From positions 1-24,168 of IMG/VR virus record IMGVR_UViG_3300009158_000196: a stretch of 24,168 nucleotides of DNA, one strand, 5' to 3'. Of the stretch, positions 5,249 to 23,035 are shown in pieces. Position 1 is the first letter of the stretch. Each line of letters starts with the position of its first letter. The translations under genes were made by a program, and so were the position numbers. Under the pieces are notes generated by a model. That model was not told the DNA's origin. It saw only the letters and a program-made list of their open reading frames with translations, and did no database searches. This stretch comes from a virus.

Positions 5249-5641
5249 TCAGTCCCAAAGAGTTAAGCCGCCGTCCCAGGTTGTAGTGCCCAGGTCCCAT
5301 ATTGTATAGGTGTGTGTTGGAGCTATAGGTAGATCCAGGAAGGGAGAGATATACTCTACCAGCCAGCAATCTGCCACTGCATAATCTGCTATCCCAGTCA
5401 TCCCTTCGGGAGTGCAGAATGCACGGAAGGCGTCCGCCGGCATTGGCTGCACCCAGGGAGCCGTAATTACATCAGGAACATTCCGTACAAAGTCCTGCGC
5501 CTCTCGTGGCTCCCAGTGCTCCGGACATACCCAATACCCTTGCCAATGCTTCTTCATCGTGGAGGCTTTGCGCTTCCTCCCGCACTGATAGCATACGGTA
5601 TTCCAGTCGCCGTCGGCAAAGAAATCTGCGCGGCCGGTCAT
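5249..5641 (-). CDS. Small zinc-ribbon phage protein (130 aa)
   Basis: A 130-residue protein with a probable zinc site formed by C17, C20, C39 and H42 (CYQC ... VCPEH). The stretch WVCPEHWEPREAQDFVRNV, with its PEHWEPR core, recurs in small phage proteins of unknown function encoded between virion genes. The C-terminal end has short aromatic repeats (TIWDLGTTTWDGG, LTLWD) that resemble strand-forming fibre or tail segments. The ATG at 5641 overlaps the stop of the giant ejection protein gene (ATGA), so the two are translationally coupled. The role is unknown. Its position suggests a minor tail or fibre-attachment protein rather than a transcription factor. Confidence 0.65.
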   Translation of the reverse strand: MTGRADFFADGDWNTVCYQCGRKRKASTMKKHWQGYWVCPEHWEPREAQDFVRNVPDVITAPWVQPMPADAFRAFCTPEGMTGIADYAVADCWLVEYISPFLDLPIAPTHTYTIWDLGTTTWDGGLTLWD

Positions 5642-8600
5642 TGCGATTGCTCCGAAAGACGTTTATCGATCCTACGTTGCACTGCGAGTCGCTTGGACTC
5701 CGCCTTCGCAGCCGCCCGTTCTTCGAGGGTCTTCCCGTACACTGGCATACCCGCCATACTCCAGGCGGCCTTCTGAGGATTCGCCGACTCAAATCCTTGC
5801 GCTGAGATCGGAGTGAACTGCCGCGCCACATGGCCCAGTCTCGTACCAATCGAAACGTCCTTGCCCCTCTCTACTCCACCCATCCTCGGCGCTCCCTTCG
5901 GTGACCAGTACTCCACATCCCCGAGTTGCGATGCAGTCTCCTTCACAAGGAACGAAGCCTTACCCATCGCTTGCTTGCGCGGATCGAGCAACCAGTGGAA
6001 GGGTTCCATGAAGTGCTTCGACAGTTGCATCGTCGTACCATCCCCGCGATCCAGGCGTGTGGGATCTTTATTATCCCAGAAGTGATGACCGGACATTTGA
6101 TAGTTCAGCGTATCTGCGATTGCGGTGTAGAGGAACGCGCTCCGCATGATGTACTGGCGGTGGAGGTCAGCCAGCTCCGTCGGGTGGAGAAGGCCACGGA
6201 AACCGCCCGAAGGCGTACCCTTGAGTCCTCCCGCCATTCCCGCTGCCAGTCCCAGACCAGCTCCAACGAACCCTCCAACACCTTTGTTCTCCGGATCAAT
6301 CTGTGATCCTAGAATCCCGCCGGCAATGACTGCACTCTCCCTAGGGCCAAAAGCCTTCACAAAAGCCCGAGTCGTGGAGATCGTCCAGTCCGGCGCGAAC
6401 AGAACCAGTCGCATTCCGAAGCGGCCGGTGGGGGACAGTGCTGCCGAGGCCAATTCCCTACCCCAGCGACTGGAGAACTCCCCTACAATCTGCTGGTAAT
6501 TCAAGCCGCCGTACAGGTCATTCGTGAAGCTGGCGGCTGCCCGTCCGATCTCCGCGCGGGACTTGGGGGGTTCCTTTCCTGCCTCAACCATGCGCGCATT
6601 ATTACGGGATAATTCGCTTACCTTATCCGCATAGGTCTCTATCTTCAGCGTGGTATGAAATCTTGCCCACATTGCATCGTCGAAGATATGGTTGAGGGCC
6701 AGTATCGCTCCGGTGGAATACTTGCCAAGGCCTGGCACTGTCTTATCAAGGAACATTGTTGCTGTTTCCAGCCCCTTGTAGATCCCTGGACGTTCCTCTG
6801 CAACGACTGAACCATGACGCTGGCGGGAGAATTCCACTCCATCCTTCATCGCCGAGTCGATCAGGTCGCCGGCTCCTCCTTCTCGAATCATCTTGACTGC
6901 CAGGCTTTCCCCGAATACCACCGGCATGAAGCTTTGCCCAAATACCCGCACTCCACGAATCGGTGACTTGAAGATCGAGGTTGCGCCCAGCATTGCATGT
7001 TCAAGGGCCGTCGCGTGGAAGAGACTCAGGGATACGCCGAGGCGCTTCTGGGTAGAGTTAATCGCATCGAGGGCTCCGAGGATTGCACCAGGGTTGCTCG
7101 AGTCGAATACGAAGCGAAGGTCGGCGGCTATGTCTGGATGGACACGTAAGCCGCGAAGCTGCGGGGCATCAACAAAGACAAACTCGGACGGTGCCTTGCC
7201 TTCCTTCTGTACCAGCTTCGTTCCGTCCGGAAGGGCCGTTTCCCGAAGCGTCTCGATGAATCGGTTATTCGCAATGGCTCTGCCGAGTGAGTCCGAGTAC
7301 ATCGTAATGACTCTGGCAATGTCAGTCGTGACCGGAACGTAGCCAGCTGCTTCCGCTTCCGCTCGAGTCTTATACCCTCGCGGCTTGCCAAAGGGGGATT
7401 CCAGACTTGTACCACCACCTAGTTGCTTCCCCTCGAAGAATCCCCGATCCGCCTTCTGATAGATCCGAGTGGCATAGTCACCGAGCAACTGCTTAACCAC
7501 GCCGGCTCCCTTGGCCAGCTGGCCAAGTCCCTCGTAGAACCCCTTGATCTCCTGGGCAATCTTAAGCTCTATCGGAGACAGCCGCACCGGACGCTCACCT
7601 TCCAGATGGTCATAGATTGCTTCGCGGCGCGCTACATCAGGCACCGTCTCAATAATCCGATTTGCCATCTGGTCGACTGCCCTGCCAAACACCTTCGTCT
7701 CATAGGCCGTCTGCGCAGTCAGTTCATCTATCCGAACGAGCTCCCCTTTATTCTGCGCCCGCTTCACCGCTTCGACCCAAGCTGCCGGCTTCGCATTGGC
7801 CAGGAGGAGTCCGACGCCGGCTCCCCAAGCCGCCCCGGTCAACGGTGCATCCTTGTCCAAATAGGCTCCGAGTGCCGCACCTCCACCAAGGATCGCTATG
7901 TTCGCCAGCACTTTCGGATCAGCGCTCCCCCGTTCCGCCGCTGGAGTCGCCCGATTCTCCGGCACTTCCGCAGCTCCCGTACTCGTATCCCGATAGTCTC
8001 GCAGATACCCGCGCAGAGCTTCCTTCGCCCTGCCTACCCGAGACTTAATCGTACCCTCGGGTACTCCGAAGTGAGTCCCTGCCTCTTCATAGCTCATCCC
8101 CTCGGCCTCTACTGCCAAGAATGCTTCCTTGAATCTCGGGTCAAGCTTCTCCATCGCGGCTTCAAGCCGACCTCCGAGTGCCTTGTTCAGCACAGCTTTC
8201 TCCGGGGTCTCTTGATGTCCCAGAGTATCCGCGATGCTGCTCCTCCCAGTCGCCGGATCTTCCGACATACTCACCGTATCGGGGCGAACCTCAGCTCTCC
8301 GCAGCGAGTCAATCGCTTTGTTCATCACAGCCTTGTGCAGGAAGGTCGAGAACGCCGATTCGCCTCGGAATGTCCCGTCAGCCACAGCCTTCATCGCGCT
8401 AAGCATTCCCTCTTGCAGGACACTCTCCACATCCACCCCCTGCCGCCCGAACTTGGATTCCAGCATCCGAAGGGTTCGAGGGGCATTCTGGCGGTACAGC
8501 TCTGTGGCTGCGTGTTGTGCGTCCTTACCCCCTGCGCGAATAGCCTCAAGAAGCATCGGCTCCGACTTTCCTTTCAGGGCAAGACCGAGTCCAAGTCCAG

Positions 8601-11406
8601 CCATGGCGAGCTCTCCGCGGTCGGGGGAAGTGAGGAGGTACGCACCAGCCGCCACCCCTGCCGCGATGCCTGCGAGGAGCTTAGGGTCGGCGGAGCCCAT
8701 CATGTGGATAGTTCCGTTCTTCACGGCCGCGCGTGTGGGGACTTCGATCCAGGTGTGGCCCTGTGCGTCGATAACTTCCTTCCCGCCGAGACCCTTGAGG
8801 TAACGAGTGATCTCGCCAGCGTAGCGGTTGTAGATGGATTGGTGGCCGGGGTCAAGAAATGCCGGAGGATTACCTGCTTTAGCATTATCGTACAATCTCT
8901 GCAAGTGAGCTACATGAGCGACTTGCTTTGGGGCAACCTCTCCACTAGCTTCTTTTTCCGCTAAAATACGCTTAGCGCTTTCAAGACTGGCAGCACGCTG
9001 GGCAAGGGGTAGATCTATCTCTCTCGGCCACCCTTCCACCTTCGCTACAGTATCTGCAGTCGCAAATCTCACCACATCCTTCGGCGCGGCCTGCTCTTGC
9101 AACTGCTTCAGCCGCGCTTCCGCTTGCGCAAGTACGCTCCCCATTTCTTCCGCAGTCTTCCCTATCCGCCCGTAGCCGCCCGTCGCTTGCATTTGGCGAT
9201 ACTGTGCAACTTGTCGAGCCTGATCCTCAACAAGCATGGCGGCTTGCGCGTCACCCTGGGAGTTCTTCAGCAACTCCTCCCGTATCAGCCGCCGAGGCCA
9301 GTTCTTGAGGATGGGGGAGAGTTGGGAGGAAACCGCCGCTCCTCCTAGCGCAGTCTTGTTCTCTGCTATTAGTTGATCCAGGGAATGGAAGCGTGCGTTT
9401 AACTCTCTGCGAAAAACTTCCCTAGCTTTACTGGGGATCTTAGCTTCGTCGAGAATATAGTTTACATAAGCTAAATCTGTAGAGAATTCACTCTTAGCTT
9501 TCAGACTTCCCTCCGCCAGCTGTAGGTCCAGCTGATCTGCAAGAATCATAGTTGCATCAGGATTGATTGCATCTATACGCTGTACAGCTTTCCTAGCATT
9601 CTCTACACTGGTACGATCGCCGGCATAGTAATCTCGATACGCGTCCATTTGCCTCTGCAAAACCTCGCCCGTTTGTAGCAACTCTGCCCGTTTCGCTTCA
9701 GGAATCTCCTTCGCGTGCTGGGCCAGATCGCTTTGAATCTCCACGACGTGCTTCACGCCGTCTTCGATAAAGCTCCGCGCCCAGCCGAACAGCCGTGAGT
9801 CGTTGAAGTGATTCGCATCCGACATCTGCATATGCTCAGGGAGTTGGTAGAGGGTGGTTGTCGGAGTACCATCCCTGTAACCGCGGCCTCCATCGAAGTT
9901 CACTCCATCTGTAGTACTAGGCGCACTGATATTCTCCAGCCCATAATCCGCATACTTCGAAGTCTCCTTCGGCGCCAGCTTCCATCCCGCAGTCTCTTCC
10001 AACAGCCCACTCATCAGATCATGCGCATTCACCTTCCCTTCCGGCAGTGCCCCGAGTACTCGTTCGAAGACAGGGCGTTCCGCTTGCAACTCTGGCTTCT
10101 TCAGCAAGTCCGTAATCTGTTGCCGAGAGATGTCGGTCGCCCCCTTCGGCAGCATCTCCAGCGTACGGAAAGTGTAAGGCGCGGATTCCTTGAGCAACGC
10201 GCCCAGAGGCGAGGCACGAGTATGACCCGTCAACGCAGTCGCTCCAAGCACTCCCACCGTCGCGAGCTTGTCCACGTCCTCCGGATTCAATGCTGCCCAG
10301 ACAGCCGCCGAGGTAATGCCCAGGGCGGTCAGCAACCGCGGATCAACCTCCCCATGCTCCGTGAAGCCAGAACCAATCCGATTCCCCTCTGCATCGACGA
10401 TCCTTCCGCCGGCTTCCGCGGTTCGGCGCAGCGCAATCTTCTCCTCTGGCGTGAGGAGGAATCCCTGGCCATGCTGAATCTTCGCGCGTCCGAGTTCGAA
10501 GTCAGTGGGAGGAGTCGGAGGCGCCCGCTCCGCATCCACCTTCGCCCGAGCTTCTTCCAGCGTCAGCCCCTCCGCAATCCGAGTCTTCGATTCTGCCACC
10601 GCTTGCTCCGGCGACTTCGGCCCCACCTCCGCCAGTCCCCTCGCCTTCGCCTTTGCAAAGATTGATTCCACCGCCGCCGTGTCGGAGACCCCAGGAACCT
10701 TATTCTCCTTCGCTGCCTTGAAAGCTGCCTTCAACGCCTCCGGAGTCATAACCTCCGGCTCGGGCAGTCCTACTTGCGCGGGCGGCTCTTCCGTCGGGAT
10801 CATATCAACCATACTTGTCCCAGGAGTCCGAGGCGCAGTTGCCTTTTCCACCCCCGCTTTCATTCCCTTCAGGGTCGCCTTCCCCATACCAGCACCCATG
10901 AGCAATCCTGCAAAAGCATCAATGTCCTCTGCAAGAAGCATTCTATTCGTACCAACTTCCACCTTCTCCCCGTAGTGATGAATCGCCTTCCCGAGCTTCT
11001 GCATCACCGAATCAATCACGGAGGGGTCTGGTTCATATCCCAGAAGCTTCGTCGCGACAGTCACTGGATTCAACGCCGCTCCGACTCGCCCAGCTGTCGC
11101 GGCCCCTTCCTGCAAGGCCTCCCGCCTCGACGTTCCCTTGGCCATCTCCTCCCCTGTACGTGCCACTCCCGCTACAGCTCCAGCCGCCATCCCTATCCCT
11201 GCTCCTGCGAACTCCCCCACACTCTTCACGAAGCCGCCGACGTCCGCTGCCTTCTCTCCCAGGAACCCCTTGAGATCCCCTAGGAAAGTCCGTTCCGGGG
11301 CAGGAGCTCCCGTAAGTTCCGAGAGTGTCATCCCTCTCCCCGAGGCCACGGTAGCATCCGGAGCCGCCGTCGGCGTACCCATCAATTCATTCAGTGTCAT
11401 CGGCAT
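5638..11406 (-). CDS. Giant ejection-type (polyvalent-like) virion protein with embedded ECF sigma factor
   Basis: A 1,922-residue multidomain protein. Visible parts: a duplicated motif (MTLNELMGTP at 3-12, MTLSELTGAP at 26-35); glycine/alanine-rich hydrophobic stretches near 56-82 and 163-180; a first D-P-R membrane-hairpin-like module at 354-394; a region with NHFNDSRLFGWA and VVEIQSDLAQ (about 515-890) of a type shared by large phage polyvalent proteins; a second hairpin at 905-945; ECF sigma regions 2 and 4 at 950-1137; a third hairpin at 1161-1205; a long helical C-terminal part; a fourth Gly/Ala hairpin at about 1690-1728; and a basic tail. An AGGAGG site precedes the ATG. Position after two ejection-type genes suggests packaging and injection. 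No lysozyme or transglycosylase motif was recognised. Confidence 0.85.
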   Translation of the reverse strand: MPMTLNELMGTPTAAPDATVASGRGMTLSELTGAPAPERTFLGDLKGFLGEKAADVGGFVKSVGEFAGAGIGMAAGAVAGVARTGEEMAKGTSRREALQEGAATAGRVGAALNPVTVATKLLGYEPDPSVIDSVMQKLGKAIHHYGEKVEVGTNRMLLAEDIDAFAGLLMGAGMGKATLKGMKAGVEKATAPRTPGTSMVDMIPTEEPPAQVGLPEPEVMTPEALKAAFKAAKENKVPGVSDTAAVESIFAKAKARGLAEVGPKSPEQAVAESKTRIAEGLTLEEARAKVDAERAPPTPPTDFELGRAKIQHGQGFLLTPEEKIALRRTAEAGGRIVDAEGNRIGSGFTEHGEVDPRLLTALGITSAAVWAALNPEDVDKLATVGVLGATALTGHTRASPLGALLKESAPYTFRTLEMLPKGATDISRQQITDLLKKPELQAERPVFERVLGALPEGKVNAHDLMSGLLEETAGWKLAPKETSKYADYGLENISAPSTTDGVNFDGGRGYRDGTPTTTLYQLPEHMQMSDANHFNDSRLFGWARSFIEDGVKHVVEIQSDLAQHAKEIPEAKRAELLQTGEVLQRQMDAYRDYYAGDRTSVENARKAVQRIDAINPDATMILADQLDLQLAEGSLKAKSEFSTDLAYVNYILDEAKIPSKAREVFRRELNARFHSLDQLIAENKTALGGAAVSSQLSPILKNWPRRLIREELLKNSQGDAQAAMLVEDQARQVAQYRQMQATGGYGRIGKTAEEMGSVLAQAEARLKQLQEQAAPKDVVRFATADTVAKVEGWPREIDLPLAQRAASLESAKRILAEKEASGEVAPKQVAHVAHLQRLYDNAKAGNPPAFLDPGHQSIYNRYAGEITRYLKGLGGKEVIDAQGHTWIEVPTRAAVKNGTIHMMGSADPKLLAGIAAGVAAGAYLLTSPDRGELAMAGLGLGLALKGKSEPMLLEAIRAGGKDAQHAATELYRQNAPRTLRMLESKFGRQGVDVESVLQEGMLSAMKAVADGTFRGESAFSTFLHKAVMNKAIDSLRRAEVRPDTVSMSEDPATGRSSIADTLGHQETPEKAVLNKALGGRLEAAMEKLDPRFKEAFLAVEAEGMSYEEAGTHFGVPEGTIKSRVGRAKEALRGYLRDYRDTSTGAAEVPENRATPAAERGSADPKVLANIAILGGGAALGAYLDKDAPLTGAAWGAGVGLLLANAKPAAWVEAVKRAQNKGELVRIDELTAQTAYETKVFGRAVDQMANRIIETVPDVARREAIYDHLEGERPVRLSPIELKIAQEIKGFYEGLGQLAKGAGVVKQLLGDYATRIYQKADRGFFEGKQLGGGTSLESPFGKPRGYKTRAEAEAAGYVPVTTDIARVITMYSDSLGRAIANNRFIETLRETALPDGTKLVQKEGKAPSEFVFVDAPQLRGLRVHPDIAADLRFVFDSSNPGAILGALDAINSTQKRLGVSLSLFHATALEHAMLGATSIFKSPIRGVRVFGQSFMPVVFGESLAVKMIREGGAGDLIDSAMKDGVEFSRQRHGSVVAEERPGIYKGLETATMFLDKTVPGLGKYSTGAILALNHIFDDAMWARFHTTLKIETYADKVSELSRNNARMVEAGKEPPKSRAEIGRAAASFTNDLYGGLNYQQIVGEFSSRWGRELASAALSPTGRFGMRLVLFAPDWTISTTRAFVKAFGPRESAVIAGGILGSQIDPENKGVGGFVGAGLGLAAGMAGGLKGTPSGGFRGLLHPTELADLHRQYIMRSAFLYTAIADTLNYQMSGHHFWDNKDPTRLDRGDGTTMQLSKHFMEPFHWLLDPRKQAMGKASFLVKETASQLGDVEYWSPKGAPRMGGVERGKDVSIGTRLGHVARQFTPISAQGFESANPQKAAWSMAGMPVYGKTLEERAAAKAESKRLAVQRRIDKRLSEQSQ
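7792..7926 (-). repeat. Membrane-hairpin module, copy 3 (protein level)
   Basis: Residues 1161-1205 of the giant protein: SADPKVLANIAILGGGAALG, the turn AYLDKDAPLT, then GAAWGAGVGLLLA. It lies just after the sigma-like module, so copies 2 and 3 bracket it. A looser fourth Gly/Ala hairpin occurs near residues 1690-1728. Confidence 0.65.
7996..8559 (-). other. ECF-type sigma factor module inside the giant virion protein
   Basis: Residues about 950-1137 of the 1,922-residue protein read as a near-complete group-IV sigma factor. The region 2-like part runs from LLEAIRAGGKDAQHAA through DVESVLQEGMLSAMKA to FRGESAFSTFLHKAVMNKAI plus DSLRR. The FxGxSxFxTxLxxxxxNxAxDxLRR pattern is the classic region 2.3-2.4 signature for -10 recognition and core binding. 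A linker of about 40 residues follows. Region 4 is LDPRFKEAFLAVEAEG, then SYEEAGTHFGVPEGTIKSRV, then GRAKEALRGYL, the standard helix-turn-helix for the -35 element. Both halves are intact and in frame with the rest of the protein. A role in redirecting host RNA polymerase is inferred. Confidence 0.8.
8572..8694 (-). repeat. Membrane-hairpin module, copy 2 (protein level)
   Basis: Residues 905-945 of the giant protein: SADPKLLAGIAAGVAAGAYL, the turn LTSPDRGE, then LAMAGLGLGLAL. It shares the G-S-A-D-P-K-x-L-A start with copy 3 and lies immediately before the sigma-like module. Confidence 0.65.
10225..10347 (-). repeat. Membrane-hairpin module, copy 1 (protein level)
   Basis: Residues 354-394 of the giant protein: VDPRLLTALGITSAAVWAAL, a short acidic turn (NPEDVDK), then LATVGVLGATAL. 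The layout is D-P-[K/R]-L-L followed by two short Ala/Gly-rich hydrophobic segments separated by a charged turn, shared with the later copies at 8572-8694 and 7792-7926. It lies just before the EIQSD region. Confidence 0.55.
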
Positions 11407-11408
11407 GA

Positions 11409-12509
11409 TCAGTCCTCCTCATCCGCAGGGCCTTGCACGCCAGTCCCTTGAGCCGCCAGGGTCTTCTTCGCCGCATTAGCCGCCGCATATTCGAACATCG
11501 GTTCCCCTCCTGCGTTCTTACCAATGTAGACGACCTTCTGCCCCTTGACCGTATAGCCTTGATTAAGCATGAACTGTTTCTGATCCAGTGGCAGGGCCGG
11601 ATATTGCTTGTCCTCCTTGGCGGCTTGCGTTGCCTGAGTCGAAGATGTTCGAGCCTTCTTCAAATCAATCGTCGCTTGCGTACCGTCACCAAGGAACTTT
11701 GCTGCATTATCTGCCTGAATTTTAATCAGTCGTTCCCGCTCTTTCGATACTCCAACCCTTGCATCAGCTGCCTTGGCGCTAGAGTCATTCAAGGCCCTAG
11801 TACTCTTCGAACTAGCCTCCTCCCGCTTAAGATCTAGAAGTTCTTTCGCCTTCATGCCGGAGTCTCTGATCGCAGTAAGTGCCGCCTCATTAAACACGGG
11901 GGGAAAGACTGTCGGGGGATTCGGCCCCGCCATTGCTTGTTGTAGTAGTGCTGAATACTGCGAGGGATTATTCAGTGCCGCTTGTGCAAAGCTAGCCGCC
12001 CGACCTGCCTTTTCCTGCTGAGCCTTTATCTGAATTTCCGCCGCTTGTGCGCTTCGATAATCTCCAATCGCAGTCTTTTCTGTAATATCTGCAAGTTCTT
12101 TCCGCAGGGGAAGCAGTTGAGTCTCCGGCAAGCCGGCCTTCTCAAGGTAGGAAATGAAGTTACCAAGACGCGCCGTGGGAGAATTTACTGCCGGTTGCCG
12201 ATTAAGTCCTATATCATTGAACGTAGCAACCTGTCCTCGTTCCGCCTTTCCCGCAATCGCTGCCTGTGCTTCCTGCTGCGAGAAAGACGTCGATAGTGCC
12301 AGCATCTGCTGTGCCGACTTATTAGCAATATCCTTCTGCTCCGCCTCCGCCCCGTATAACTTCGCGTGAGCTTGCGTAAGTGCCAGATGCGCCGGCTGCT
12401 CCGCAATCTCCCCGAGCGTCTTCTGCGCTTGTAACGCGCCTAGGATATTCTGACGACTAGATGCTTCTGCCGCCTCTATCCCAACCGGTGCGCCGAACAT
12501 ATCAGCCAT
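11409..12509 (-). CDS. Probable internal virion/ejection protein (366 aa)
   Basis: A 366-residue, alanine- and glutamine-rich protein that is almost wholly helical by composition. Long heptad-like stretches occur at about residues 15-90 (RQNILGALQAQKTLGEIAEQ) and 215-300 (LLDLKREEASSKSTRALNDS, then VSKERERLIKIQADNAAKFL). The C-terminal region has a short beta-like patch (YTVKGQKVVYIGKNAGGEPM) and an acidic end, PADEED. There is no signal peptide or clear membrane helix. Its start overlaps the upstream gene by 8 bases and the giant protein gene follows after 2 bases. Position between two other ejection-type genes suggests it is packaged in the head and released with DNA, like the P22 gp7/gp20/gp16 group, although no direct similarity is claimed. 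Confidence 0.6.
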   Translation of the reverse strand: MADMFGAPVGIEAAEASSRQNILGALQAQKTLGEIAEQPAHLALTQAHAKLYGAEAEQKDIANKSAQQMLALSTSFSQQEAQAAIAGKAERGQVATFNDIGLNRQPAVNSPTARLGNFISYLEKAGLPETQLLPLRKELADITEKTAIGDYRSAQAAEIQIKAQQEKAGRAASFAQAALNNPSQYSALLQQAMAGPNPPTVFPPVFNEAALTAIRDSGMKAKELLDLKREEASSKSTRALNDSSAKAADARVGVSKERERLIKIQADNAAKFLGDGTQATIDLKKARTSSTQATQAAKEDKQYPALPLDQKQFMLNQGYTVKGQKVVYIGKNAGGEPMFEYAAANAAKKTLAAQGTGVQGPADEED

Positions 12510-13371
12510 TGAAAATAATCCCCGAGTTCTTCAAAGCCGCGAGTTGTGCTGGAGTGAATCCCATATTGCCGCCACCCGCACTGGTCACCCCATAACCTAT
12601 CGAAGCGAGACTCTGCGAGGCCAGCGTATTCGCACCTACCTGTCCGGTCATGCCGACTTGGTAAGCGGAAGCAGGATTCTGAGAAGCTCCGGCGAGACCG
12701 CCAAGCTGCCCAAGTCTCTGATTATACCAGTCCGTAGAGGCATTCGCCCCTGCGACACTCATGGCTCCGGAGTCCTGTCCGAACTGTGCATTAGCCCGCG
12801 AAGCTCCTTGCATACGAAGGGCGTAGCTGGGATCACGTGCAGCGACCTGACTAGGGTTATTCAGAAGATCCTGGAGTTGCGTGTCAGCCAGTGCGCGTCC
12901 ACCAGAATTCCCCCAAGGATCCGCCTTCTGCTGTGCGAGCAGGGCTTGCTTACGCAAGGCATCCGCTTGGCTCATTCCGTAGATGCCGGAGCCTATAGAC
13001 ATAGCAGGCCCCGCAATTTGAAGGGCACCCTTCACGTCTCCCCAACCAACGCCGGAACCGAGAATTCCACCGCCTGAATTAGCTACACTTGCAGGATAAC
13101 CCCAAGCATCGGCGGCGGCACTTGCACCAGTGCTAAGTCCCCAAGCATCTGCAGCACTTCCAGCGGTAGCAAGACCCCCTGCGTAGGTCGTCGCATCCAT
13201 GCCATACATAGCACCACCGGCTTCTGCAGCCGTCATACCGGCGCCGAACATACTAGCTCCTCCGCCGTATTCCGCCCCAGTTGCCAGTGCGCCCGCCATG
13301 AAGGAATCCGCGGCAACACCCGTACCGATCTCTCCAAGTAACCCACCAACAAGTGCTTCTTCAATTCCCAT
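12502..13371 (-). CDS. Probable internal virion/ejection protein, Gly/Ala-rich (289 aa)
   Basis: A 289-residue protein. Residues 1-130 are a very glycine/alanine-rich, weakly hydrophobic region (GGLLGEIGTGVAADSFMAGA, and ILGSGVGWGDVKGALQIAGP). Residues about 135-240 contain helices with ADPWGNSGGRALADTQLQDL, NPSQVAARDPSYALRMQGAS, a DSGAMSVAGANAS turn, then DWYNQRLGQLGGLAGASQNP. This order (PWG...L..L..NPS......Y....Q......A....G..S) recurs in short-tailed phage virion or DNA-transfer proteins. The ATG at 13371 has AAGGAG 8 bases upstream and overlaps the end of the radical SAM gene by 11 bases. The hydrophobic N-terminal half fits a membrane-inserting ejection protein; the role is inferred. 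Confidence 0.65.
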   Translation of the reverse strand: MGIEEALVGGLLGEIGTGVAADSFMAGALATGAEYGGGASMFGAGMTAAEAGGAMYGMDATTYAGGLATAGSAADAWGLSTGASAAADAWGYPASVANSGGGILGSGVGWGDVKGALQIAGPAMSIGSGIYGMSQADALRKQALLAQQKADPWGNSGGRALADTQLQDLLNNPSQVAARDPSYALRMQGASRANAQFGQDSGAMSVAGANASTDWYNQRLGQLGGLAGASQNPASAYQVGMTGQVGANTLASQSLASIGYGVTSAGGGNMGFTPAQLAALKNSGIIFNG

Positions 13372-14635
13372 AATCCAAACTCCTTCTGAATACTAGAGCG
13401 TCGCCAAGCTGCGACACTTCGGTTAGTCCAAATTTCTCCTGCCACTTTCGAAGTTTCAAATCTCCCTTCGGTATGCAAGAGTACGCTTCCTTATACCCAA
13501 GTGCCACTAGCTCTTTCAGAAATTCTGGCCAAACGCGGAGACATTCCTTAGCCTCCCGCAGACCCCAAGCCGCCATATCGCAGTGAAGCCAAATCCGTCC
13601 TGGCCATGCGCCCCGTTCAATTGCTTTCAAAGTACCGAAGTCACGAGAAACTTCATGAATCGTGCGCTTATTATCAATTAATAACCTGCGCTCAAATTGA
13701 ATCTGCACTGGCGTCAAGGCACTAACTACTTGCATCAAAGGGCTACGCATTGGGCCGAGAGGCGTACCGAACACAGGGCCAGTCTGGCTCATCGGAGTCA
13801 CTGTAGCATTATCAGGCCAACGGACGAGGTGGAGATTAAATCCGCGATAGATCAATTCGTTGAAGTATAAATTACTCCCGCCGTCTTCCATCTTCGTAGC
13901 GCCAAGACTCAGCGCTAACTTCGCCATGTCGGACATGAAGAGTCCAGAATCTAATTTACAATCTCCTATCGCAGCGCCGGCTCTAATAACGAACTGCTCT
14001 GTCTTAGCCCCAAGATCGATAAGGAAATCTATTGCTGTAACAACCTGAGCCAATTCCTCCAGCGTCGAAATGGTAAAGGCCCATTGACACACAGGAAGTC
14101 CTACATCAATCAGATTCTTAACCACCTGTGCCTTACGCGTACTGATCTTATAAGCCGCCGAGAAGTGCATCGAATAGTTAAGATAGGTCAGTCCTGCTGC
14201 TTTCAGTGCAACGCAGTATTCCTTATCCAGCAACTTCTTCCCGTTCGTTGTAATCCCTACGATGTATCCTTGTCCCACAAGTGCCCGAATAAGTCTGAAC
14301 AGATCCTCACGAGTTGTCGGTTCTGCTCCCATCAGACAGATATTCTTAAGCCCACTCAATTTAACTTCTAGCAGGATAGATTCAATGCTACGATCTTCTG
14401 TAGTATTATCTACTTTATAGTAGCAGTACTTACAAGACATATTACAATGAGCTGTTACATCGACGACGTAGGTCTCACTAAACCGTCCGATCCAGTCATT
14501 AGTCTTCAGATCAATCATTTGACCTATGAAAGCTGCATCAGTATCTACAACCCTCCCATTGACGACAAGGTTATTCCCCTCGAGCGTCAAAGCGCGCGAA
14601 CGAAGAAAGGAGGGAACGACCAAGGCTGTGTTCAT
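13361..14635 (-). CDS. Radical SAM protein with GNAT-like C-terminal region
   Basis: A 424-residue protein. The radical SAM core begins near residue 53 with TYVVDVTAHCNMSCKYCYYK: C64, C68 and C71 form the CxxxCxxC motif that binds the 4Fe-4S cluster. LMGAEPT (101-107) matches the GGEP-type S-adenosylmethionine site and TTNGK (129-133) is the usual following strand. No second SPASM-type cysteine cluster is visible. From about residue 315 the sequence changes: TIHEVSRDFGTLKAIERGAW, IWLHCDMAAWGLR, WPEFLKELVALGYKEAYSCI, PKGDLKLRKWQEKFGLTEV. This resembles an acetyltransferase-like (GNAT) fold. The gene is coupled by ATGA to the 74-residue gene and overlaps the next ejection gene. The substrate is unknown. 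Confidence 0.85.
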   Translation of the reverse strand: MNTALVVPSFLRSRALTLEGNNLVVNGRVVDTDAAFIGQMIDLKTNDWIGRFSETYVVDVTAHCNMSCKYCYYKVDNTTEDRSIESILLEVKLSGLKNICLMGAEPTTREDLFRLIRALVGQGYIVGITTNGKKLLDKEYCVALKAAGLTYLNYSMHFSAAYKISTRKAQVVKNLIDVGLPVCQWAFTISTLEELAQVVTAIDFLIDLGAKTEQFVIRAGAAIGDCKLDSGLFMSDMAKLALSLGATKMEDGGSNLYFNELIYRGFNLHLVRWPDNATVTPMSQTGPVFGTPLGPMRSPLMQVVSALTPVQIQFERRLLIDNKRTIHEVSRDFGTLKAIERGAWPGRIWLHCDMAAWGLREAKECLRVWPEFLKELVALGYKEAYSCIPKGDLKLRKWQEKFGLTEVSQLGDALVFRRSLDYGN

Positions 14636-14856
14636 GACTTTGTTATAATACGTCCATTTACTACGTTAAGATCGTGCCCATCTGCCACGGTAGTATTAAA
14701 GGTTTCTGTCAAGCCTGTTCCACCGTCGGTTACTGAATTTACAGCCGCCGAAAGATCCAGAAACCACTTCAGCCACACCGGATGAAAGGTAGCCTTATTC
14801 GTCTTCTCATCAATCAAGATCGGCAAAGCCCAGGTCGGCGGCGGTTGAATCTGCAT
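14632..14856 (-). CDS. Small conserved phage protein (74 aa)
   Basis: A 74-residue protein beginning MQIQPPPTWALPILIDEKTN, then KATFHPVWLKWFLDLSAAV. This P-P-P-x-W ... P-V-W-L-x-W-F pattern recurs in small phage proteins placed after tail genes; their function is not known to me. Its ATG overlaps the gp10-like stop as TAATG and its own stop overlaps the radical SAM start as ATGA, so it is translated as part of a coupled chain. In P22 the gene after gp10 is the tail needle, but this protein is far too short to be a needle by itself. A minor tail or plug component is possible. Confidence 0.6.
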   Translation of the reverse strand: MQIQPPPTWALPILIDEKTNKATFHPVWLKWFLDLSAAVNSVTDGGTGLTETFNTTVADGHDLNVVNGRIITKS

Positions 14857-16637
14857 TACAGCGTCCCAATATCCAGTTGCAGTTCAATACCTTGTATTCG
14901 CATACGAGTGTCGCACTGGTGGCGGAAGTGATATGCCCTACGCATGAAGGAGCCATTATTTACAAGCATAGGTTTCTTCAGGTTAAGATCAACCTTACGG
15001 AAATTTGTCCAACGATCCGCTGCGTAGTCGCTGTCATTTGAACGGACTTGCAGGAAACTTCCTGGCGTCTGATCCCCAATGACCTCTAGAACATTAAGCT
15101 GCTTCCGCCGACGAACACCTCCGTCGAAGTTAGGAGTGTACAGATCTACAACTATATACTCTCCATTGTCACTTGTATATTCAGAATCAAATTGATAAAG
15201 TTTCCCGTTAGACTCGTGTTGGAGAATCGGGCCGACTGTTTCGGAAAAACTACACGCAACCATGGGCCAGTAGTTTCCATCCTGGTCAGTCCATTGCGCC
15301 CACTTCTGATCCGTCATATCATAAACCAGGGTGATATTCTCATTCACCAAGGTAATGCCATAAAATCTATGCCCCTCATACTTGATTCCGAAGGAGTGAA
15401 CGGAGGACAGATCGGCTTCGCCAAGGAGTCGTTCAATCGCTTTCGTAGATACAATCGTCGGCTTGAGGTTCTCTACGAGAAGTATTTGTACAGCTGCTCC
15501 TCGATTTGTAGCGATCCAGAGCAGTACTCCATCAATCTCTTGAATTGAATCCGCACTCGCACAACCATAGTTTATCTTCGCACCCTGCACAGGGCCGAGA
15601 GGCGAGGCTGTCGGGTTCATCTGATCGTAGAAAACTTCCGTCGACCATTGCCCAAAAGCGATAATGTAGACCAGTTGTTTATTCAGCGCTACGCCGCCGT
15701 CCGGTTCGATCTGTGCGGTAAGGCGATTAAGAACATCACTCCACGCAGTCGGATCATTAAGACTTGCACAGCCGCGAACTGACGCATTCGAATCCATCAC
15801 ATAGGTAGTTCCATCAAGGTACGCAATGCCCTTAACAGTGGCCGACGGGAAATTACTTGGTGTTGTTGCAGTTCCGGTACCTGTTCCTACTCCACTTACC
15901 GTAACCGTTCTTGCCGGAGCTGATCCTACTGTAGCAGAAAGATTACAAACAGAACTAACGCCACCAGTTCCTGAGGCGAAAGAAGTAATTGTAATGCCCG
16001 CAGCAAGCCCCGTTGAAGCGATTTCCATTCCAACTGCAAAAGAAGTCCCCGTAGTAAATGCAACAACTGTCATAGTAGCAGCGGCAAAGGTACAAGTCGC
16101 CACGACGCCGGCTGTGAAAACGGTTCCTGGAGTACTATTAGCCGCCCCGATTAAGGTAAAGTCTGTCGTTCCAGCCGTTGCGATGGTGTAGGATACTCCG
16201 TCCAGGAACGCCCCTGCCGTCACGGTTGCTGTAGTCGTGATCTGCACAATGCCTGCGCCGGAGTCATAATTATACGTCGCCACGCCATTTCCGAACTGCA
16301 TCCGTGGTGTAGCTCCACAACTCTGACAGAATCTATACAAGCCGCCCGTTGCGTCAAGAGTTCCTGAAACAGCCACGCCATTCTTGTACAATGTAGTTCC
16401 AAAGATAGAATAGACATCGCCGAGCCAGTTGTAGACTCCACGACCTGTCCCTGTCTGTACGCTCCCCCAGGCAAGAGTTCCTGGCCGTTTATAGATCCAG
16501 TACTCTCCTTCTTCCCTTCCCTTCTCCACGTAGCCATTAATGAGCTTCGCATCCTTAAGCGTAGTCTCATCCCGATTAGCGGGTTCTACGATGAGAGGAA
16601 GCCGCTTAGGAATCGCAACTGATTCTGCTTGCGGCAT
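14856..16637 (-). CDS. P22 gp10-like tail hub / packaged-DNA stabilisation protein with insertion
   Basis: A 593-residue protein resembling the P22 gp10 family, which closes the portal channel beneath gp4 and serves as the tail hub. Supporting stretches are LINGYVEKG and YWIYKRPGT near the start (32-54), ASLNDPTAWSDVLNRL (about 291-306), GQWSTEVFYDQ, NRGAAVQILLVENLKP, the HRFYGITLVNENITLVYDM plus WAQW core, and the C-terminal RRAYHFRHQCDTRMRIQGIE. P22 gp10 has 472 residues. Most of the extra length is explained by a beta-rich insertion at about residues 132-262. The gene starts in a TAATG overlap with the gp4-like gene, and P22 has the same gp4-gp10 order. Confidence 0.75.
   Translation of the reverse strand: MPQAESVAIPKRLPLIVEPANRDETTLKDAKLINGYVEKGREEGEYWIYKRPGTLAWGSVQTGTGRGVYNWLGDVYSIFGTTLYKNGVAVSGTLDATGGLYRFCQSCGATPRMQFGNGVATYNYDSGAGIVQITTTATVTAGAFLDGVSYTIATAGTTDFTLIGAANSTPGTVFTAGVVATCTFAAATMTVVAFTTGTSFAVGMEIASTGLAAGITITSFASGTGGVSSVCNLSATVGSAPARTVTVSGVGTGTGTATTPSNFPSATVKGIAYLDGTTYVMDSNASVRGCASLNDPTAWSDVLNRLTAQIEPDGGVALNKQLVYIIAFGQWSTEVFYDQMNPTASPLGPVQGAKINYGCASADSIQEIDGVLLWIATNRGAAVQILLVENLKPTIVSTKAIERLLGEADLSSVHSFGIKYEGHRFYGITLVNENITLVYDMTDQKWAQWTDQDGNYWPMVACSFSETVGPILQHESNGKLYQFDSEYTSDNGEYIVVDLYTPNFDGGVRRRKQLNVLEVIGDQTPGSFLQVRSNDSDYAADRWTNFRKVDLNLKKPMLVNNGSFMRRAYHFRHQCDTRMRIQGIELQLDIGTL
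15852..16244 (-). other. Inserted beta-rich modules within the gp10-like protein
   Basis: Residues about 132-262 differ from the rest of the gp10-like protein, being almost only Thr, Ala, Gly, Val and Ser. They contain two small modules seen across many phage surface proteins. The first is YTIATAGTTDFTLIGAANST plus PGTVFTAG. The second is FAVGMEIASTGLAAGITITS plus FASGTGG. A closing GVGTGTGTATT, which usually ends the first module, comes after the second, suggesting that one module was inserted into the other. Such domains are usually surface decorations. Confidence 0.5.
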
Positions 16638-17347
16638 TACCTAAACCTCCCTGCGGAAGTTCCACGAGCATCAGGAGTGAAACGCAACGGAGCATCTTCA
16701 ACGTCCCAATCTTCCAGGGTCGTCCGATAAGCCGCCGCACGTTGCTGGCAGCGATCCATAATTGCTTGTGGCTGGCCTGTACAGATCTCATCAGCAAGTC
16801 CCCAGCGCAGTGCAATCCGCCACTCAATCGGAAAGTTCATTGTTTCCGTGAGGTTGACGAAATTAGTCACCTGTACCTGAGTAAGGAGATGCGCGGTTCC
16901 TGTAGCCGCCGTAGCATCGGGGACAAGCCAGAAGAATACACTCAACTGTGTCTGTTGCTTATCGACGAAGTAAGAATTGATTGCGCCGACTTGAGTGATT
17001 TGACTCAACCTGACATAATCATTCCAACTCATGACAACTAAGGGTCGCCGAATACCATTAACATCTGCGTACCAGGCATCGAGAATCCGCGGCGGCTTAA
17101 CCATCACCACACTTCCCACTGGCCCAAGGGTGTATGTTCCCTGTCCTGCGACCAGGGTAATCGGAGTATCAACGTTAAGCCAAAGTTTCACCCCTTGCGT
17201 TTGCCAGAGATTTACCAGGTCTGTCAGTTTCCGCATCCCCGAAGTTATCTGCTCACTGTTAAGTGATTCCCCTTCTTGCAAGAGACCTGCGTCAAAGTAC
17301 GCATCTTGAATGATTGAAATGGGTGTGTTATCTACGGGGGCGGTCAT
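16637..17347 (-). CDS. P22 gp4-like head-completion / tail adaptor protein
   Basis: A 236-residue protein with the layout of the gp4-type adaptor family: an N-terminal helical bundle (ISIIQDAYFDAGLLQEGESL, NSEQITSGMRKLTDLVNLWQ), a middle beta part with the recurring VAGQGTYTLGPVG motif and KPPRILDAWYADVNGIRRPL, and a C-terminal helical part with NFPIEWRIALRWGLADEI and QAIMDRCQQRAAAYRTTLED. In P22, gp4 (166 residues) binds under the portal and makes the platform for gp10. This one is longer, mostly in the middle beta region. It directly precedes the gp10-like gene, the same order as in P22, and overlaps it as TAATG. Confidence 0.75.
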   Translation of the reverse strand: MTAPVDNTPISIIQDAYFDAGLLQEGESLNSEQITSGMRKLTDLVNLWQTQGVKLWLNVDTPITLVAGQGTYTLGPVGSVVMVKPPRILDAWYADVNGIRRPLVVMSWNDYVRLSQITQVGAINSYFVDKQQTQLSVFFWLVPDATAATGTAHLLTQVQVTNFVNLTETMNFPIEWRIALRWGLADEICTGQPQAIMDRCQQRAAAYRTTLEDWDVEDAPLRFTPDARGTSAGRFR

Positions 17348-19525: not shown

Positions 19526-20446
19526 TTACGGGCCGTTCGAACCAAAGATGCCGCGAGGATCAGTACAACCGACGCTGAACCGCATATACGAAGCTGCCTT
19601 CGCATTCTTGGTATCAAAGTCATTATCCTGATCAAACATCGGCTCATCACGCCAGAAGAACGTCATACCATTCGGGCAGTTCGTCCTGATGAACCAGGGG
19701 TGCGCGCTCGAGAAGTAGTGATTCATCTTAATGCCCTTCGGGAACGCATTGGTCGCCTTGAGCACGTTGATGTTGTTGTTGGCCGAATCTGACTGCAACA
19801 CCGAACCCATGATCCGGTTAGCATTGTACCACTCTTGGCGAGCGATATGCAGCGATTCTGGCATGATGTTGATGAGCAGACCCGTATCGTTCTGCGTACC
19901 CATGATCTGGATCGTGAGATCCTCAAGGGCAGCTTCGGACAAGTCAGCCGCCGGACTCAGCGCATTGCTGTACGTACCACCAGTCGCATTGACGTGGGAA
20001 GTCGAACACAGCGCAGCAGCATCACCAGTCGTGAAGTACGTCGTAACGAAGGCATTGTTGTAGATGAAAGCCGCGACGTTTTCAACCGTCTGGTTCATCG
20101 AGAACGCATTAGCCTCAGCACGACGAGTCGCAACTTCCTTATACAGGTTGTCACGCAGTTCTTCAAATGTAACGATGTAGCCCAGGGCGTATGCAATGTG
20201 CGAATAAGTCGTCACTGCGCCTTGAATTTCACCGTCATAGGTAACGCCAGAACCTTGGGTCTTAACCGGAGCCAGACCGAACGGAGAGATTTGCACCGCC
20301 TGTTCGTAGGCCTTATCCGAGGTCTTGATGTCGAAAAGATCGGTATACTCCTTTTCGTGAGAGTCATAAATCTGACCCCATGTAGTGAAGATGCCGGGCC
20401 AAAGCAGTTTAGGATGCGAGCCTGTGTTGATAACGCCACCAGCCAT
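19526..20446 (-). CDS. Major capsid protein (HK97 fold, gpT-like)
   Basis: A 306-residue major head protein. Recognisable parts are the N-terminus NTGSHPKLLWPGIFTTWGQI, YTDLFDIKTSDKAYEQAVQI, the YSHIAYALGYIVTFEELRDN segment with the following helix KEVATRRAEANAFSMNQTVE (the long spine helix of the HK97 fold), the central ALCSTSHVNATGGTYSNALS, and the C-terminal GMTFFWRDEPMFDQDNDFDT. The pattern resembles major head subunits related to Mu gpT. It has an AAAGGAG site and follows the decoration-like gene by 12 bases. There is no N-terminal delta/protease region, and a separate scaffolding protein is encoded two genes upstream. Confidence 0.85.
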   Translation of the reverse strand: MAGGVINTGSHPKLLWPGIFTTWGQIYDSHEKEYTDLFDIKTSDKAYEQAVQISPFGLAPVKTQGSGVTYDGEIQGAVTTYSHIAYALGYIVTFEELRDNLYKEVATRRAEANAFSMNQTVENVAAFIYNNAFVTTYFTTGDAAALCSTSHVNATGGTYSNALSPAADLSEAALEDLTIQIMGTQNDTGLLINIMPESLHIARQEWYNANRIMGSVLQSDSANNNINVLKATNAFPKGIKMNHYFSSAHPWFIRTNCPNGMTFFWRDEPMFDQDNDFDTKNAKAASYMRFSVGCTDPRGIFGSNGP

Positions 20447-21623: not shown

Positions 21624-22478
21624 CTAACTCCCTTCAAAATATATTTCAGCGTAGCGAGCACGCCACTCCGCCGGTGTTTTATAACGCTTGTTTGCACCTA
21701 CGAAGTTACGAGCATCCGCATCGCAAGCTGCCCGCGCATCGGCCGGAAGCGCACTCCAGCCCTTGCTTGTTCCGGAGCGGGGAGCTTCATCACTTCCATT
21801 ACGAGCTCCCTCAACCTTACTCCGAGGAGTCTCTGCGCTCGGATAAGAATCTTCCATCTCGGTCTTCACCTTATCGAAGAAGCGCCGCCCCGTAGATGAT
21901 TCACCCCCTTCCCGAAGTTCCTGCGCAATGGCAAGAGCCAAGGCAGTCTTACGCTTATCCTTTCCGAACCACGGATTCTCTTCGTTCCAATCGGCCAGTT
22001 CTGGCGGAGCGACGAAGGGCGCGGGTTCGGGCGCAACTTTCTTTACTGGAGGCGCTTCTGCTTCTGCAGCGTTGAGTTGAGTGAGTTGATCAGTAAGTTC
22101 TGCCACACCTTCATGATCGCCGGCTTCTGAAGCAGCAGCCAACTGTGCCTTCACTTGACGCCGAGCATTCTCCACCGCCTTTTGAGTAGCGACAGTGTGG
22201 CGTTCCTCAATTTCCTCAATTGCCTTCGTAGCCGCCGAAAGGGCAGCTTCCGTTTTCGTCTGATTGGCCTTGAGACTTTCGACCTCAGCCTGCAGTCGCT
22301 TGTTCTGTTCCTTGACTATCGGCAGTACTGTCTCACCGCGCTCCACATAGGCATCTGCGTCAATGAAACGCTCAGGGTCGCCCTTGAAGCGGGAGGGGGG
22401 AATCCAACCAAGCTTCTCCGCCCTTGCTTGAATTTCCGGAGTGGCGACTGATTCGACCGGAGGAGCTTCATCAGACAT
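21624..22478 (-). CDS. Probable head scaffolding protein (284 aa)
   Basis: I place the start at the ATG at 22478, not the upstream in-frame codon at 22547. The later start has a GAGGGGG site 6 bases ahead and makes a short overlap with the co-chaperonin stop. The 284-residue product is highly charged. It begins with the phage scaffold-like GWIPPSRFKGDPERFIDADA, then YVERGETVLPIVKEQNKRLQ, and has a long coiled coil (about 50-140). A flexible Pro/Ala/Glu linker follows, then a basic C-terminal end (NKRYKTPAEWRARYAEIYF) that suits capsid binding. Scaffolds direct capsid assembly and are then lost. The order co-chaperonin, scaffold, two small genes, capsid supports it. Confidence 0.75.
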   Translation of the reverse strand: MSDEAPPVESVATPEIQARAEKLGWIPPSRFKGDPERFIDADAYVERGETVLPIVKEQNKRLQAEVESLKANQTKTEAALSAATKAIEEIEERHTVATQKAVENARRQVKAQLAAASEAGDHEGVAELTDQLTQLNAAEAEAPPVKKVAPEPAPFVAPPELADWNEENPWFGKDKRKTALALAIAQELREGGESSTGRRFFDKVKTEMEDSYPSAETPRSKVEGARNGSDEAPRSGTSKGWSALPADARAACDADARNFVGANKRYKTPAEWRARYAEIYFEGS

Positions 22479-22797
22479 GATCTTCCCCCTCGTGAGTAAT
22501 CGCACAGAAGATGTCGCGGTCATTGACCAGACGATACATCTCTCCATCTCTTGGCCCCTTGGCCATGAAGCCGGCGAACTTCGTTACGAGTACCTTGTCT
22601 CCAACAGTTGCCCGAGGCGCCGGCTCATCATGCCAAGCAGCCGGCCCTACGGCAATTACCGTAGCCCGATTGTCGACCATAGCCAGCCTTCCTTGAACAT
22701 TATCAGGTATCACGATTTGTGCGCCTTTTCTTTCCGGTTCATATGTTTTAATAAGGACTGCTACGCCCCTAGGTTCCAACCCGCTCAAATTCTCCAT
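22471..22797 (-). CDS. Phage GroES-like co-chaperonin
   Basis: A 108-residue Cpn10-type protein (109 if the first of two adjacent ATG codons is used). Starting at 22797 puts the GGAG site 7 bases ahead, which is why I chose it. Numbered from the first ATG, it has the N-terminal strand LEPRGVAVLIKTYEP, a mobile-loop-like segment with an IVI tripeptide (29-31, in ERKGAQIVIPDN), the strand NRATVIAVGP, the barrel motif VGDKVLVTKFAG and the closing YRLVNDRDIFCAI. GroES-type proteins cap GroEL; phage T4 gp31 does so to fold its capsid protein. Encoded beside the scaffold, this one likely helps fold the capsid protein on host GroEL. It overlaps the end of the previous gene by about 29 bases. Confidence 0.8.
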   Translation of the reverse strand: MENLSGLEPRGVAVLIKTYEPERKGAQIVIPDNVQGRLAMVDNRATVIAVGPAAWHDEPAPRATVGDKVLVTKFAGFMAKGPRDGEMYRLVNDRDIFCAITHEGEDHV

Positions 22798-23035
22798 CAT
22801 CTATCTCCGTTACGTAGTCTTCGTAGGTAAGTTCGGATACAAAAGCGTATCCCCTGCAAGTCCCTAGATTCCCTACATTGATCAAGGACGTTGTTCCTGC
22901 ATCGTAATCAGTGAAACTACCTGCTTCCCATTGCCGCCGAAGTGAGTCCCGTTTGGCTTCAAGAACCGCAATGATAGCTTGCGTTCCTGGATGTAATCTC
23001 CATTCGTTGAATTCTTCCTCGGTCAATGCGCGCAT
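22769..23035 (-). CDS. Small phage protein of unknown function (88 aa)
   Basis: An 88-residue acidic protein starting MRALTEEEFNEWRLHPGTQA, then VLEAKRDSLRRQWEAGSF and a C-terminal YEDYVTEIDDGEFERVGT. The pattern 'E-x-W-x-x-H-P-x-T-x-A ... L-R-x-x-W-x-x-G-x-F' recurs in small phage proteins encoded between portal and scaffold genes, with no function known to me. It starts 1 base after the repeat-protein stop (TGA T ATG) and its 3' end overlaps the co-chaperonin gene. It may be a small assembly factor; this is position-based inference. Confidence 0.55.
   Translation of the reverse strand: MRALTEEEFNEWRLHPGTQAIIAVLEAKRDSLRRQWEAGSFTDYDAGTTSLINVGNLGTCRGYAFVSELTYEDYVTEIDDGEFERVGT

Follow-up and report, generated by a model that had tools for sequence, protein, structure and literature searches.

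A radical SAM enzyme joined to a predicted GNAT-fold domain in the virion operon of an uncultivated podovirus

Why would a podovirus keep a radical SAM gene between the genes for its tail and those for its ejection proteins? The question is raised by a 424-residue protein encoded in an uncultivated virus record of IMG/VR (24,168 bases; this whole stretch is termed here the window), which an earlier note had described as a radical SAM enzyme fused to a GNAT-like region, and which it had read either as a virion maturation enzyme or as an injected enzyme acting in the host. The observation itself is confirmed, and that interpretation is supported in part, in that a radical SAM enzyme and a GNAT-like fold, the latter predicted, do occur together in a virion operon. 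The superfamily and the fold are both known, and our literature search returned no description of their combination or of its genomic setting, nor any mention of radical SAM enzymes in the internal virion modules of podoviruses.

A gene translationally coupled to tail and ejection genes

The main genes of the window all lie on the minus strand, in the order GroES-like co-chaperonin, scaffold region, capsid protein (19526-20446), tail tubular A-like (16637-17347), tail tubular B-like, adaptor-like, fusion and gp14-like genes, followed by genes for proteins of 366 and 1922 residues. The fusion gene reads from an ATG at 14635 down to a TGA at 13361; the earlier note had placed it at 13361-14635, which is right, and had left out the strand, which is minus. 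Its open reading frame and translation are backed by a Radical_SAM match and by a full-length homologue in another contig (L149:2640-3917, minus strand; 55% identity). Immediately upstream are a tail tubular B or packaged-DNA stabilization-like protein of 593 residues (14856-16637, minus strand), recognized by tblastn to phage stabilization proteins, and a small tail-adaptor-like protein of 74 residues (14632-14856, minus strand), whose N-terminal part related contigs also keep behind their tail B gene. Downstream, a gp14-like small ejection protein of 289 residues (12502-13371, minus strand) is assigned by position, with homologues in related contigs and with a counterpart in the distant podovirus contig L128 that belongs to phrog_598 'DNA ejection'; beyond it are an ejection-module protein of 366 residues (11409-12509, minus strand), likewise assigned by position, and a large internal virion or ejection-type protein of 1922 residues (5638-11406, minus strand) with Pfam matches to sigma-70 regions 2 and 4.

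The start of the fusion gene overlaps the stop of the upstream gene by 4 nt (ATGA), and the gp14-like gene starts 11 nt before the end of the fusion gene, with an AGGAG ribosome site ahead of it. The fusion gene is thus translationally coupled on both sides, as had been claimed. The absence of a nearby metabolic partner gene also held up: none was recognized among the genes of the window, or among the open reading frames read, mostly by eye, in the 46 kb genome L130.

Other genes of the window deserve mention in their own right. The GroES-like co-chaperonin gene (22471-22800, minus strand; phrog_3188, 3.6e-8) lies ahead of the capsid genes, and such a gene is also present in MW202796 and in Alcaligenes phage vB_Af_QDWS535. 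Within the 1922-residue protein, the sigma-70 regions 2/4 map to 8017-8502 (minus strand; PF04542 1e-7, PF08281 5.6e-12), and the same domain recurs in L130, L114/L115, L108, L051, L012, L018 and L016; it looks like a sigma factor borne by a virion protein of this phage group.

An intact radical SAM domain outside the named families

The three motifs that had drawn attention to this protein are all present: the cluster cysteines C64, C68 and C71 (CNMSCKYC, residues 64-71; 14423-14446, minus strand), GAEP at the position of the SAM-binding GGEP motif (residues 103-106; 14318-14329, minus strand) and TTNG (residues 129-132; 14240-14251, minus strand). The cysteine motif is invariant in both the full-length homologue and the radical SAM protein of L128, while GAEP is identical in the homologue and reads GGEP in L128, and TTNG is retained in the homologue and reads ATNG in L128. 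Pfam Radical_SAM (PF04055) matches residues 60-157 with an E-value of 8.3e-13 and 49.3 bits, above the gathering score of 29.5; together with the conservation of the fusion, this rules out a chance occurrence of the motif. An AlphaFold2 model of the full-length protein, for which the alignment had six rows, reached a mean pLDDT of 68, with values mostly of 65-96 in the blocks of the barrel; Foldseek matched it to both radical SAM enzymes and GNATs, with E-values of 2.1e-9 for MoaA and 3.1e-8 for GDGT-MAS. In VIA comparisons, GDGT-MAS (7tom) aligned over model residues 53-282 with a Z of 17.3 and MoaA with a Z of 15.0. Residues 53-214 (13994-14479, minus strand) are accordingly modeled as a partial TIM-barrel radical SAM fold closest to GDGT-MAS and MoaA.

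With these two enzymes, GDGT-MAS being the tetraether lipid synthase Tes, the protein shares the barrel fold, the CX3CX2C cluster and the SAM-binding motifs, but identity is about 20%, and the fusion bears a GNAT-fold C-terminus in place of their C-terminal parts. The 61 NCBIfam matches to the fusion protein are all partial, MoaA and TrsS being the best, and every one of those listed falls far under its cut-off: the MoaA models score 56.4, 54.8 and 45 bits against cut-offs of 325, 231 and 284, and the Tes model 40.8 against 450 bits, none of them as a full-length match. An ordinary MoaA, QueE or SPASM maturase is ruled out by these partial, sub-cut-off matches. The cysteine set of a SPASM or twitch auxiliary cluster is absent, the only cysteines after the barrel being C226 in the post-barrel region and C352, C365 and C387 in the GNAT part. 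With its motifs complete and its predicted fold intact, the protein looks like a working radical SAM enzyme. The region that follows the barrel (residues 215-310; 13706-13993, minus strand), to which the L128 protein still aligns as far as about residue 283, is probably the substrate-binding part.

A predicted C-terminal GNAT fold that lacks the acetyl-CoA loop

The claim that the C-terminus has an acetyltransferase fold was borne out by structure prediction but not by sequence profiles, as neither Pfam nor PHROGs gave a match to this region. Residues 295-424, modeled separately from a five-row alignment (mean pLDDT 72, rising to about 80 from model residue 28 on), follow the order helix-helix-beta-beta-beta-helix-beta-helix-beta-beta, and the PDB matches listed for this model are essentially only GNAT acetyltransferases (best Foldseek E-value 3.1e-5, to GNAT 2g3a; VIA Z about 10). 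Among viral models in BFVD, its best matches are unnamed phage proteins of 96-98 residues, and two entries named 'Internal virion protein A' are also matched. The acetyl-CoA pyrophosphate loop (R/QxxGxG/A) is missing from the fusion protein and its aligned homologues: between the strand at 347-352 and the helix at 359-378 the fusion protein reads DMAAWG, and a tryptophan is invariant across the fusion protein and its homologues at the would-be acetyl-CoA-binding stretch. We take residues 323-419 (13379-13669, minus strand) to be a degenerate GNAT fold without the usual cofactor site, a module that is probably non-catalytic.

The same domain also occurs alone, outside any metabolic radical SAM family. 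The two findings by which the earlier note would have been refuted, a cysteine motif that varies among homologues and a C-terminus that has no GNAT-like fold and is always tied to a host metabolic radical SAM family, were thus both contradicted. RIO-1_39 (YP_008051109; 96 residues), from Pseudoalteromonas phage RIO-1 of the Zobellviridae, is 33% identical to it over most of its length and is encoded after a tail appendage gene and shortly before an internal virion protein; KZY1 has another stand-alone copy ahead of its ejection genes, and a more distant relative occupies an equivalent slot in L104/L114/L115. The RIO-1 and KZY1 proteins thus correspond to the whole C-terminal domain and share its place after tail genes and before internal virion proteins; they differ from the fusion in standing alone, at 96-100 residues, without a radical SAM part. 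Because phages that lack the radical SAM half retain the C-domain, it probably has a job of its own.

The slot concerned, between the tail or adaptor genes and the gp14-like gene, is that of T7 gene 13, and it often bears a GNAT gene. Ordinary GNAT genes lie in or near it in L009, L010, L039, L049, L106 and L110, and in it in MW202796 and Alcaligenes phage vB_Af_QDWS535; the GNATs of the latter two (phrog_1249) share fold and genome slot with the fused domain but stand alone and are seen by ordinary GNAT profiles, to which the fused domain is invisible. The earlier statement that T7-like ejection proteins can contain GNAT-like domains is therefore better worded as a property of this slot. T7 gp13 itself (PF11090, probable scaffold or internal virion protein A) is encoded between tail tubular B and gene 14, which is the position of the fusion gene, with one small adaptor gene intervening, and the C-domain resembles proteins named 'Internal virion protein A' at the level of structure, whereas T7 has no radical SAM. 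The PF11090 profile does not match the fusion protein (hhalign probability below 1%), and hhalign comparisons of the C-domain with T7 gp13 and with slot GNATs, all based on thin profiles, gave nothing significant. Across related contigs (L004, L008, L015, L039 and others) the interval between the adaptor and gp14-like genes varies from about 1 to 7 kb, with gene contents that differ widely; from this varied length and content, the slot behaves as a cargo hotspot.

Recurrence and conservation of the fusion

When IMG/VR was searched with a degenerate DNA pattern for the cluster motif, a full-length homologue emerged in two contigs, the 46 kb genome L130 and L149. It has 426 residues, is collinear with the fusion protein, and has the same neighbors: an adaptor gene before it and, after it, a gp14-like gene and a large protein that shares the sigma-70 domain. 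As these contigs come from two other metagenomes, an assembly artefact joining two genes is ruled out. Cysteines 64, 68, 71, 100, 183, 226, 365 and 387 are kept between the two fusion proteins, whose identity is highest in the post-barrel region (71%), compared with 53% in the barrel and 50% in the GNAT-fold part, and their genes differ at 34, 30 and 63% of first, second and third codon positions, respectively. This pattern indicates purifying selection that maintains both halves, and the constraint is strongest after the barrel, where a conserved, putative site for the substrate would lie. Elsewhere in L149 (8364-8780, minus strand), the capsid gene is separated from the following structural gene by a small gene that, read by eye, looks like one of HNH/endonuclease VII type.

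Among the related contigs examined, the fusion is present only in L130/L149 and in the record itself (with an identical fragment, L002), and the survey of relatives that the earlier note had proposed thus separates phages with the fusion from those that have the C-domain without the N-terminal half (RIO-1, KZY1 and, more distantly, L104/L114/L115). A motif scan of the post-barrel region returned the known members alone; the full-length family is known from two phage types. No radical SAM gene was found in six other related records of up to 46.6 kb, near-complete genomes included; the radical SAM step is therefore dispensable for the group. Pattern scans of 84,980 species genomes gave no close bacterial homologue, the first scan yielding no relative and the second barrel-level matches alone. 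When 379 genomes from a single phylum were searched with a profile, there were two strong matches only, both ending before about residue 155. These scans are of limited reach, and a bacterial source is still conceivable.

The two folds also meet, unfused, in a different and distant podovirus represented by the 61 kb contig L128 (7968-9375, minus strand). There, stabilization-type and adaptor genes are followed by a stand-alone radical SAM gene (326 residues, with an HMPTM-type zinc ribbon), an overlapping stand-alone GNAT gene (151 residues; PF00583 1.3e-6, phrog_1249 5e-9) and the phrog_598 gene. The fused C-domain and this GNAT are not demonstrably orthologous. Being fused in one lineage and neighbors in another is a classic sign of a functional link, and the gene arrangements suggest one here. 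In a further viral contig (L152:7965-9463, plus strand), a 303-residue radical SAM gene precedes a gene with a weak, sub-cut-off match to Asp/Arg beta-hydroxylase (3.5e-4), possibly another protein-modifying pair.

Possible roles in assembly or entry

What might such a protein do? The reading we prefer is that the enzyme would be synthesized late, alongside the proteins of the tail and of ejection, and that its GNAT-fold module, of a kind that stands alone at the podoviral T7 gene 13 position, would dock it on the forming ejection core, so that within the producing cell the barrel could carry out a single radical modification on one particular component of the particle under assembly. It is because phages without the radical SAM half retain the module that we infer this docking role, and the site of action and the class of substrate are conjectural in the same way; we put the whole forward tentatively, with rather less than even confidence. 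Several observations count against it: the nearest matches of the barrel are MoaA and GDGT-MAS, which act on small molecules and lipids, and not SPASM peptide maturases, the C-domain has no significant sequence link to T7 gp13 or to canonical GNATs, and the family is confined to two phage types, with near-complete relatives that have no radical SAM gene. The affinity of the barrel to enzymes acting on GTP and lipids speaks instead for a late, host-directed or metabolic enzyme that would have a small molecule, lipid or RNA in the producing cell as its target, its gene lodged in a cargo-tolerant slot and its GNAT fold perhaps helping to bind substrate; the HMPTM zinc ribbon of the L128 relative, as in pterin- or lipid-type enzymes, and the wide variation of the slot in length and content point the same way. 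A random place is nevertheless opposed by the use of one slot by two diverged lineages and by the repeated company of GNAT or gp13-like genes, and a partner gene that such metabolism might call for was recognized neither in the window nor in the reading frames read in L130, leaving this role improbable, if still worth keeping in view.

Alternatively, the protein could be packaged with the ejection proteins and injected, its radical SAM part altering a host or early phage target and its GNAT-fold part serving as a packaging or ejection tag. We regard this as unlikely, if less so than the metabolic role: an injected Fe-S cluster would need to survive in the virion and be rebuilt after a narrow channel. 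The position between tail and ejection genes nonetheless fits injection, and the sigma-70 domain of the neighboring ejection-type protein suggests that this group loads enzymatic or regulatory cargo. GNATs have been discussed as cargo of capsid-delivered polyvalent proteins (PMC5512222), and host RNA polymerase is a target of the phage GNAT Rac (PMC7552054), both of which favor an injected effector. Those polyvalent proteins resemble the fusion in tying enzymatic domains, GNATs included, to virion delivery genes; the fusion differs in being small, with two domains only, and the word 'radical' does not occur in their description (PMC5512222). The virion proteins listed for the T7-like phage phiPsa17, in the portion of that account drawn on here, include gp14-16 and not gp13 (PMC4517105). 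Because of this list, and because an Fe-S enzyme is poorly suited to virion storage and unfolding, we prefer action during assembly over injection, neither argument being strong.

Elp3 likewise comprises radical SAM and GNAT folds in one protein, and the fusion of the two here and their adjacency in L128 could suggest a similar two-domain catalysis, in which both halves would carry out radical acyl chemistry on tRNA or protein. The Elp3-type cysteine motif, however, differs from CX3CX2C, the acetyl-CoA loop is missing from the fused GNAT half and from its stand-alone relatives, and no Elp3 was found among the PDB sequence matches (nor among the best 50 VIA matches for the full-length model, which by itself is not evidence). 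Such catalysis is therefore very improbable, and the fusion, judged on its sequence, is a combination independent of Elp3.

Implications for podovirus biology

Phage-borne radical SAM enzymes are mostly assigned to the metabolism of nucleotides or cofactors. The present one forms a single protein with a domain of the ejection operon, and a distant phage has the pairing too, as separate genes. We give nearly, but not quite, even chances to the view that a radical SAM enzyme serves podoviruses, with a reused gp13-like GNAT module as its tether, either in modifying part of the ejection apparatus or in acting within a cell just infected. Should the enzyme target the ejection core or be injected, phage assembly or entry would gain a step of a new kind, and the T7 gene 13 position, which is poorly understood and bears GNAT folds in several podovirus groups, would become easier to approach. 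The recurrence of the fusion, together with the neighboring genes of L128, suggests a so far undescribed chemical step in the building or launching of these viruses.
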